Source: Candidatus Hydrogenisulfobacillus filiaventi (lineage in GTDB: Bacteria; Bacillota; Sulfobacillia; Sulfobacillales; R501). From it: 64,000 nucleotides of DNA. The notes beneath the pieces are model-generated. The model was not told the DNA's origin. It ran no database searches and was given only the letters and a program-made list of their open reading frames with translations. The position numbers and the translations under genes are program-made. The stretch spans positions 2,232,001 to 2,296,000 of the forward strand of contig LR778114.1 of NCBI GenBank assembly GCA_902809825.1, given 5' to 3'. Positions 44,362 through 46,546 of this stretch are shown here, one piece after another (the stretch's first letter is position 1; each line of letters starts with the position of its first letter).

Positions 44362-46546
44362 TCAACCCTCGAGACCCAGCAGGGCCAGGGCTGCCTCCAG
44401 CCGCTGCGCCCGATGGACCCCCAGCGCACCCGCCACCTCCGGATGCCGCCCGGGCACCAGCGCCCGCCGGAATCCCAGCACCTCCGCCTCCCGCAGCCGT
44501 TCGGGGATGCGGGGGACCTGCCGCAGGTCGCCGGTCAGGCCCACCTCCCCCACCAGCACCCAGTCGGCCGCTACCGGCACCGCCCGCACACTGCTGACGG
44601 CCGCCGCGGCAATGCCGAGGTCGATGGCCGGATCCTCCACATTGACCCCGCCGGTGATCTTGAAGTAGGCATCCATGCCGGCGGCGGCAATGCCGGTCAC
44701 CCGTTCCACCACCGCCAGCACCAGGGCCACCCGGTCCGGGTCCATGCCGGTCACCACCCGCCGCGGCGGTCCGGCCGCCCGCACCAGCAGGGCCTGCACC
44801 TCCACCAGCAGCGGCCGGCTGCCCTCCAGCGCGGCCACAATCACCGATCCGGCCGCCCCCTGGGGCCGCTCGGCCAGCAGCAGACGGGAGGGATCGGGCA
44901 CCGCCTCCAGGCCGTCTCCGTTCATCGCGAACAACCCGAGCTCGCTGGTGGAACCGAAACGGTTCTTCACCGCCCGCAACATGCGAAGCGCATGCTGACG
45001 ATGACCTTCAAACAGGAGCACCACATCCACCAGGTGCTCCACGACGCGTGGGCCAGCCAGCGCTGACGGACAATGCCTTCATCCCGGGATTAGGATGGCC
45101 GGGAAGGCCAGTACGCTTCCGCCCCCTCACAGACCCAGGGCCGTCCCGGGCCGCACCAGGGCAGGGCGGCCAGCTGGGGCGGCACCGGGAGCCGGCGGCC
45201 CCGGGCCCGCCAGAGGCGGGCCAGGAACGGCCAGGCGGCCGCCGGCACGGTCTCGGCCAAGGTCCGTTCCGGACCCGCCAGGAGGCCCAGCAGGGTCAGG
45301 GCCTCCTCCAGCGCCAGGTCGGCGGCGGTGCCGTCCGGCAGGCGGACGGCGGCCCAGGCCAGGGCGGCCAAGGTGCGCGGGCCCAGGCGCCGGAAGAGGT
45401 CCAGCCCCGCCTGCAGTCCGCGATCCGGCTCCCAGCGCAGGCGGCCGCCCGCCTCCAGCCCCACCACCGCAAACCCGCGGGTCCATTCCCCGGCTTCCCC
45501 GCCCAGCACCAGCAGGGGCGCCGGTTCGGTGGAGGCCAGGAGGGCCCCGCCGCGGAACGGCAGCAGCAGGGCCGGCACCTCGTGCTGCCAGCAGTAGCGC
45601 ACCAGCTTCAGCCAGGGCTCGACCGCCTCCAGGCGCTCCAGCCCGGCGTGACCACGGCGGCGGGCCAGCTTCTCGGCCCGGGCCGCCAATCCCAGGAGCC
45701 GGGCGTATTGTCTCTGAGGATCCGGGGGACTTGCGGGGGTCATCCCGCCCACCTCCGTTTCCTGCACATCGGGCCGCCCGGCCGGGGCTTACGCGCCGGC
45801 CGGTTCCCGGCGGGACAGGCCTTTCATGCATACAGCCCGGTGTTTGCCGCCCGGTTGCCCTAGGCGGCGGGCCGCTTCGACCCTTCCTTAGTAACGTGGC
45901 CCACCACGATCACCGGGGTTTCAGGACCGCCGTCCGCCCCCTTGGCCAGGCGCATGAGACGCGCGGCCACCTCCCGCACCTGCCCTACGCTGCCGGGAGC
46001 GGACTCCAGCCCCGGGTGGTACACCGTCTGCAGGGAGTCGACCACCACCAGACGCCAGACCTGCTGCCGCACGGCCGCCGTGACCGCATCCAGATTGGAT
46101 TCCGCCAGCAGGTAGAGCCCGGACCCGTCCGCTCCCAGGCGACGCGCCCGCATGCGCACCTGGCGCAGGGACTCCTCACCGCTCACATAGAGCACCGGGC
46201 CGTCCCGGCTCAAGGCCGCCGCGACCTGCAGCAGCAGGGTGGACTTGCCCACCCCGGGGTCCCCGCCCAGCAGGATCAGGGCCCCCGGCACCAGGCCGCC
46301 ACCCAGGACCCGGTCCACCTCCCCGAGGCCGGTGGGCAGGCGTTCCTCCTGCCCGCCGTCTCCCGCCGCCGCCGGGACCACCGCTGCCGCGGGCAGGGCG
46401 GCGGCCGGCGCCGCCGGAGCCAGCGTTTCCTCCACCATGGTGTTATAGCCGCCGCAGCCCGGGCAGCGGCCCACCCAGCGGGGCTGGGTGGTGCCGCACA
46501 CCTGGCAGACGAAGCGGCGTACGGTGCGATGCCTGCCTTCGTTCAG
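44362..46546 (-). CDS. radA: DNA repair protein RadA, split by a group I intron
   Basis: RecA-like branch-migration helicase. Exon 1 (45880-46546) has the C4 zinc finger (FVCQVCGTT and GRCPGCGGYN), Walker A (GGDPGVGKSTLLLQ) and ends GHVTKEG plus the first base of a Ser codon. Exon 2 (44362-45062) resumes SLAGPRVVEHLVDVV, then RadA motif AVKNRFGST and the LonC-like domain (GGVNVEDPAIDLGIAAAAV). Joining them gives 455 residues, the family length. Without splicing, exon 1 stops five codons into the intron. Start: no ATG/GTG/TTG precedes the zinc finger; CTG 46546, 9 nt after GGGAGG, is my best guess. Confidence 0.9.
45063..45879 (-). ncRNA. Group I self-splicing intron in radA
   Basis: 817 nt. 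Exon 1 ends in U (45880) and the intron in G (45063), as group I requires. P1 is exon GGGU with intron GCCC (45872-45869), with U-G at the cut. P10 is intron AGCG (45876-45873) with exon CGCU (45062-45059). P3 is CCGGGCG (45854-45848) with CGCCCGG (45705-45699). P7 is GACAAU (45712-45707) in a CAGAGAC context with AUUGUC (45074-45069) in UGAAGGCAUUGUCC. P8 is UCCUGGGAU (45697-45689) with AUCCCGGGA (45090-45082). The S element is nearly that of the Azoarcus tRNA intron. P9 seems absent. I have not assigned P4-P6. Confidence 0.88.
45090..45743 (-). CDS. Intron-encoded protein of unknown family
   Basis: 217 codons inside the radA intron, same strand. The ATG has GGAGG 8 nt upstream, and the TAA sits at the edge of the P8 3' strand, so most of the ORF is the P8 loop. 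Codons about 8-18 coincide with the P7, P3 and P8 5' strands. By position a homing endonuclease is expected, but I see no HNH, GIY-YIG or clear LAGLIDADG motif. Residues 124-139 (TLAALAWAAVRLPDGT) followed by LALEEALTLL faintly recall a LAGLIDADG helix. It could be a decayed or new endonuclease, or an unrelated passenger. Confidence 0.6.
   Translation of the reverse strand: MTPASPPDPQRQYARLLGLAARAEKLARRRGHAGLERLEAVEPWLKLVRYCWQHEVPALLLPFRGGALLASTEPAPLLVLGGEAGEWTRGFAVVGLEAGGRLRWEPDRGLQAGLDLFRRLGPRTLAALAWAAVRLPDGTAADLALEEALTLLGLLAGPERTLAETVPAAAWPFLARLWRARGRRLPVPPQLAALPWCGPGRPWVCEGAEAYWPSRPS

Follow-up and report, generated by a model that had tools for sequence, protein, structure and literature searches.

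Results

The radA gene is split at a serine codon

The window analysed here is a stretch of 64,000 nucleotides from Candidatus Hydrogenisulfobacillus filiaventi, whose complete genome consists of a single contig of 2,570,337 bases (2.57 Mb). On the minus strand of the window, radA is cut by an 817-nt insert at 45063-45879. Exon 1 (45880-46546, minus strand) encodes the zinc finger and the Walker A motif GDPGVGKST and runs to the first base of the serine codon of GHVTKEG-S; exon 2 (44362-45062, minus strand) encodes S-LAGPRVVEH, the KNRFG motif and a Lon/ChlI-like domain, both exons being assigned from the sequence and Pfam. The last bases of exon 1 read GGC CAC GTT ACT AAG GAA GGG T, with the T at 45880, and exon 2 opens after the insert (45879-45063) with CG CTG GCT GGC CCA CGC; the insertion point lies between the T and the CG of a Ser codon. 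When ..GAAGGGT (45880) is fused to (45062) CGCTGGCTGG.., GHVTKEG-S-LAGPRVVEH comes back in frame, and the joined exons give GHVTKEGSLAGPRVVEH in a single frame. The proposal of the initial annotation, that the insert splits RadA in the GHVTKEGS/LAGPR segment and that exact removal of 45063-45879 restores the frame and a length of 455 aa, is thus borne out, the length being counted from a CTG at 46546. This CTG (window 46544-46546), which has GGGAGG upstream, is probably the start codon of radA; the first in-frame ATG, GTG or TTG falls within the zinc finger.

No second radA was found elsewhere in the complete genome, and both radA exons show strong purifying selection (dN/dS 0.02-0.14) in the tested pairs. 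Together these results argue against a dead copy with an intact radA elsewhere, the case that the initial annotation had itself named as fatal to its reading. In 34/34 genomes, the first start codon of exon 2 comes no earlier than codon 6, within the conserved LAGPRVVEH.

The insert contains the elements of a group I core, all on the minus strand and located in part by comparison with the homologous introns described below. The 5' strand of P1 (45879-45883) consists of exon GGGU and intron C1, with a U.G pair at the 5' splice site, and its 3' strand is the internal guide sequence GGCCC (45869-45873; comparison of 34 introns). Within the guide sequence, GCG (45873-45875) is the P10 partner of the 3' exon CGC (45060-45062). 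P2 (45846-45868) is a hairpin with a GCAA-type loop and contains an in-frame TAG stop, at intron nt 18, that ends exon-1 translation. There follow the 5' strands of P3 (CCGGGC, 45835-45840) and P4 (UGCAUG, 45825-45830), the 3' strand of P4 (UGUGCA, 45763-45768; comparison of 34 introns), and the 5' strand of P6, AGGA with the following AAC (45757-45763), whose partner UCCU lies at 45717-45720 in a pairing that is invariant in 20 introns. The 5' strand of P7, GACAAU (45707-45712), comes after J6/7 CAGA and precedes the 3' strand of P3 (GCCCGG, 45699-45704; comparison of 34 introns) and the 5' strand of P8 (CCUGGGAUU, 45688-45696). Towards the other end, the 3' strand of P8 (AAUCCCGGG, 45083-45091) overlaps the stop codon of an intron gene, and the 3' strand of P7 (AUUGUC, 45069-45074) leaves only 6 nt to the 3' splice site, with no room for a P9 hairpin. 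The P1 with U.G, the P10 (CGC:GCG), the P7 (GACAAU/AUUGUC), the P8 and the terminal G that had been listed for this insert are all present; P3, given there as 7 bp, has 6 bp, the seventh position being A-C in 20/20 sequences.

The same radA codon is interrupted in two classes

In an initial DNA search with the insert as query against 101 relatives, the 5' third of the insert gave short, strong matches in most genomes of the order, and 20/20 fetched loci proved to be radA split at the same codon. A covariance model (R1) was built from the 5' core and run on the order, the class and 398 genomes across the phylum. The R1 core is present in 33/42 genomes of the Sulfobacillus order, at one copy per genome; in 32 of these 33, the window genome included, it belongs to the radA intron, and in the remaining one (G013) to a different intron. 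The class-wide search added one genome of another family (G057), and the phylum search added three (G214, G252 and G473) from one family of another class, interrupted at the same radA codon, for a total of 36 genomes in two classes with an intron at the same radA site. These data, together with frame restoration, define the intron at 45063-45879. A pattern scan of named genomes gave Sulfobacillus thermotolerans Kr1, S. benefaciens, S. acidophilus, S. harzensis and MAGs, S. thermotolerans Kr1 and S. harzensis being cultivated strains with the intron; a Winogradskyella pattern match (L052) was taken as chance.

Intronless sites also occur. In genus g4 of the order the intron is absent and radA is intact GHVNKEGSIAGPR, and in the other class G513, of genus g178, has an intronless radA site GGGTCAATTGC while other members of the genus carry the intron. 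About 10 codons downstream of the intronless site, the G513 locus (L117, G513:C248) has a frameshift, which may be a MAG error. At E 1e-20, no radA was found in G016, G028, G025, G033, G038, G040, G036 and G013 of the order; G016 and G028 are near-complete genomes of one genus, and gene loss is possible there, as are missing contigs.

Covariation identifies a group I core that Rfam misses

Structure was counted over 34 homologous introns with both ends read. In 34/34 the 5' exon ends in U and the intron in G, and P1 has the form GGGU(C/U):GGCCC, its U.G pair lying at the splice site. P3 is paired in 204/204 cells, with compensatory changes at three pairs, and P4 likewise in 204/204, where UGCAUG/UGUGCA becomes UGCCGA/UCGGCA in the other class. 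P7 is paired in 173/204 cells, its first 4 pairs in 34/34 introns, and GACAAU/AUUGUC is replaced in a compensatory manner by GGCCGU/AUGGCC or GGCCAU/AUGGUC. The sequence of P8 varies among clades, with 231/306 cells paired against a shuffle maximum of 212. P10 (101/102 cells paired) tracks the exon codon, CGC:GCG becoming CGA:UCG in another class. For P3, P4, P7, P8 and P10 alike, no more than 1 in 1000 partner shuffles reached the observed pairing score. The pseudoknot order is kept, with P4-P6 between the P3 and P7 strands and P8 after P3, and P6 AGGA/UCCU does not vary among 20 introns. In the complete introns the gap from P7 to the 3' splice site measures 5-12 nt, which leaves no space for a P9 hairpin, a 2-bp P9.0 aside; this and the missing RF00028 match described below are two departures from the usual group I pattern.

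The initial annotation had argued that five pairings in the correct order are hard to obtain by chance. Its suggested check with Rfam was negative: RF00028 has zero matches to the window insert at the gathering threshold and zero up to E 10. In its place stands comparative evidence well beyond chance, namely the same insertion in 31 more genomes of the order, in one other family and in another class, with compensatory changes in P3, P4, P7, P8 and P10. It had also held that the lack of a covariance hit, combined with only unspliced RNA in cells, would count against an intron, and the first half of that pair is what we found. Because ORF-less relatives with the same core also escape RF00028, with no group I match up to E 1, the silence of Rfam carries little weight; the RF00028 model is blind to the radA-intron subfamily. 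Given the conserved boundaries, the P1 U.G, the terminal G, the P3/P7 pseudoknot and the covariation over 34 introns, the group I reading stands, and 45063-45879 is almost certainly a group I intron. An intein was considered and excluded, because every intron has an early in-frame stop and the length differences are not multiples of 3.

The intron has been inherited with radA within the order

In close pairs the intron gene and the exons had similar dS values, at 0.20/0.19, 0.90/0.75, 0.65/0.55, 1.31/1.26, 0.75/0.78 and 0.32/0.48. Within the order, the radA and ORF trees have 19/27 splits in common (shuffle maximum 3), and the radA and ORF distances correlate at 0.81. This agreement of trees and distances indicates that the intron was inherited along with radA. 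In G057 and in the other class, the radA exons group apart from those of the order, which calls for at least one transfer between lineages, or for many losses. The history of the intron thus appears mostly vertical within the order, with an old transfer between lineages.

The intron encodes a conserved protein

A conserved protein gene (45090-45743, minus strand), absent from the initial annotation, fills P8. It encodes 217 aa from an ATG at 45743 to a TAA at 45090, starting in P6 and spanning the 5' strands of P7 and P8 and the P3 strand between them, and a GGAGG Shine-Dalgarno sequence (45752-45756, minus strand) lies ahead of it within the P6 arm. Every complete intron has a homologous ORF, running from P6 through P7, P3 and P8 towards the 3' end and encoding a protein of about 210 aa. 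The start is an ATG after AAGGAGG in three homologues of the other class, an ATG after GGAGG in the window and a TTG in most of the order. Its first codons overlap the ribozyme core, so that the conservation of DPQRQ.A.LL is partly an RNA constraint; beyond this segment the ORF is under purifying selection, with dN/dS of 0.09-0.42 in close pairs, values that signal a function but not its kind. Searches of Pfam, NCBIfam, PHROGs, PDB sequences, phage records and viral contigs gave nothing convincing. Outside the intron, the ORF was not found in the 398 phylum genomes, phages or viral contigs, bar one spurious match, a distant one in G319 that was rejected as chance.

AlphaFold2 modelled the window protein with a pLDDT of 84 and its other-class homologue with a pLDDT of 91. 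Foldseek with the window protein alone gave nothing significant, and with the better model, that of the other-class homologue, a best E of 0.012. For residues 31-138 of that model, the structural comparison list consists mostly of PD-(D/E)XK proteins, all with Z below 8: Hjc is the best match (Z 7.5, rmsd 2.9, 87 aligned), and further ones of this type are VRR_NUC (7.2), Tk-TIP26 (7.1), McrC (7.0), HindIII (6.0), FokI (5.9) and I-Ssp6803I (5.3). Each match is weak alone, and it is the consistency of the list on which we base the assignment; the modelled fold makes a PD-(D/E)XK ancestry of the intron protein likely. The C-terminal part of the same model resembles the winged-helix domains of response regulators (PrrA/VanR; Z about 5).

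The lost active-site residues were located by the strand register of the model and not by structural alignment. In this register, neither the catalytic D nor the (D/E)xK motif was found: across 32 aligned members, the strands expected to carry them have no conserved D, E or K. Strand 2 begins with an Asp in the other class and in G057 but not elsewhere; at the (D/E)xK position these proteins have R/Q/K-x-W, and those of the order have hydrophobic residues. The residues that are invariant beyond the RNA core, K20, R24 and R196, are all basic. The protein is very likely devoid of nuclease activity today.

Related introns without an ORF occur in other genes

In both genera of the other class, a cheY-like response-regulator gene (L105 in G214 and L106 in G252, both at about 1470-1700) contains a second group I intron of about 210 nt, ORF-less and with the same core type, at the site ..VVDDAAFMR-M|MIKDIL.. 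and with a P1 of GAGGAU:GUCCUC with U.G. The intron of G013 (L086, G013:C44, minus strand, contig about 112214-112356) likewise lacks an ORF and is a group I relative of the radA intron; it has additional 3' stems beyond P7 and interrupts a phage-type structural gene (..FFINYDTIPL | HFGIASGLNHL..). This phage-type host makes a viral source of the intron subfamily possible.

Discussion

Upon transcription the core would fold, guanosine would attack after the U of GGGU, the exons would be ligated and full-length RadA would be translated from the spliced mRNA. An in-frame stop lies 18-63 nt into every intron, and a ribosome on unspliced RNA would halt there, ahead of the core; such keeping of ribosomes off the core by an early stop has been argued for other protein-gene introns (PMC3984707). 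Both exons are constrained, yet exon 2 offers no start before its codon 6; RadA must therefore be produced from the joined exons, which argues for splicing, and we hold with great confidence that the intron is spliced in vivo. With hardly less assurance we regard the locus as a group I intron in radA that splices, a judgement that does not extend to the role of its protein. The alternative that nothing is spliced, and that radA is a split gene making two separate polypeptides, or else a pseudogene that took up an insertion long ago, could appeal to the silence of Rfam and to the fact that we infer splicing of the radA intron from sequence. This is very improbable, however, in the face of a P10 partner that changes in step with the exon base, a 3'-terminal G in 34/34 introns, an exon 2 constrained from its first codons without a start codon there, and conservation across two classes.

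What the protein does is a harder question. Were it still to cleave intronless radA and spread the intron by homing, one would understand its PD-(D/E)XK-like fold, the presence of intron-minus radA beside intron-plus relatives (genus g4, and G513 in genus g178), and the use of the same site in unrelated lineages whose ungrouped radA exons suggest at least one transfer. Against continuing mobility stand the aligned proteins, in which no acidic/lysine active site is conserved, the vertical descent seen in the agreement of ORF and exon trees and dS within the order, and the single copy per genome, and we consider it quite unlikely. It can also be imagined that the core splices and that the protein has no part in splicing, serving for instance to bind radA DNA or to regulate the operon. 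Its C-terminal likeness to winged-helix DNA-binding domains (PrrA/VanR) and the purifying selection on the ORF would suit such a role; the confinement of the ORF to the intron, and its absence from sites without the intron, would not, and we see this as a possible but rather doubtful explanation. A protein without nuclease residues that is kept in every intron and found nowhere else points instead to a maturase, a role we find slightly more probable than not. Our best reading is therefore that this group I intron was mobile in the past and no longer is, and that its protein, formerly a homing endonuclease, has become a maturase, the last step being one that we infer. An ancestral endonuclease of PD-(D/E)XK type would have ferried the intron among distant lineages; its active site would then have been lost, and the protein most likely retained to bind the RNA of its intron and help it to splice.

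Because the intron gene begins within the core, its translation might compete with splicing, although this is an idea only. It is tempting to go further and to picture the intron as an obligatory, protein-assisted switch on RadA, in which the ribosome binding site and start codon in the core (P6 to P7) make translation and splicing mutually exclusive per molecule, and a dead PD-(D/E)XK protein, representing a new maturase class, feeds back on radA splicing order-wide. This extension we offer tentatively, as rather unlikely.

In the protein genes of bacteria, group I introns are regarded as rare and patchy in occurrence. As bacterial protein-gene hosts, a review names recA, nrdE/nrdF and flagellin genes (PMC3984707). 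The introns of recA in Bacillus anthracis and of nrdE/nrdF in the Bacillus cereus group resemble the radA intron in being group I introns of a bacterial DNA-repair or DNA-metabolism protein gene (PMC3984707); the radA intron differs in its host gene, its spread over an order and a second class with largely vertical descent, its ORF family without known relatives and its lack of a P9 hairpin. The Geobacillus flagellin-gene introns are also group I introns in a protein gene of thermophilic Bacillota, with a different host gene (PMC3984707). Among the open-access papers listed, we found no earlier report of a bacterial radA group I intron, in keeping with the statement of the initial annotation that none was known in radA, and no relevant report of a group I intron in Sulfobacillus. 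Archaeal RadA inteins were discarded as a precedent, as they concern a different protein and a different mechanism. The ribozyme class itself is familiar; what is new is the host gene radA, the order-wide inheritance, the ORF family without known relatives, probably of PD-(D/E)XK descent, and a core missed by Rfam.

I-Ssp6803I, a homing endonuclease of the PD-(D/E)XK type, belongs to a tRNA group I intron of a cyanobacterium. It shares with the radA-intron protein, as modelled, a bacterial group I intron as its home and a PD-(D/E)XK-like core (2ost, Z 5.3, rmsd 4.2, 89 aligned); no sequence similarity was found between the two, and the radA-intron protein lacks the active-site residues, has an extra C-terminal winged-helix-like part and resides in a protein gene. 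The conversion of a homing endonuclease into a maturase is an established route (PMC3984707, PMC3943268, PMC1654191), taken by I-AniI, the yeast cob maturases and the Thermotoga 23S LAGLIDADG maturase (PMC3943268, PMC3984707). As with the radA-intron protein, these are intron proteins under selection after loss or decoupling of the endonuclease; they belong to the LAGLIDADG type, whereas the radA-intron protein would be a putative maturase of PD-(D/E)XK descent. We know of no earlier maturase of such descent.

The subfamily described here, with hosts that include radA, cheY and a prophage gene, is unseen by the standard Rfam model, so that bacterial group I introns may be more numerous than now counted, and genes that they interrupt, radA among them, may be taken for fragments. 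Across most of the Sulfobacillus order an intron has persisted at a single codon of a repair gene, and it appears in a second class too; the gene it carries is seemingly stripped of mobility yet still under selection. These introns provide a natural series in which to test how a selfish intron may become a permanent, protein-dependent part of gene expression.
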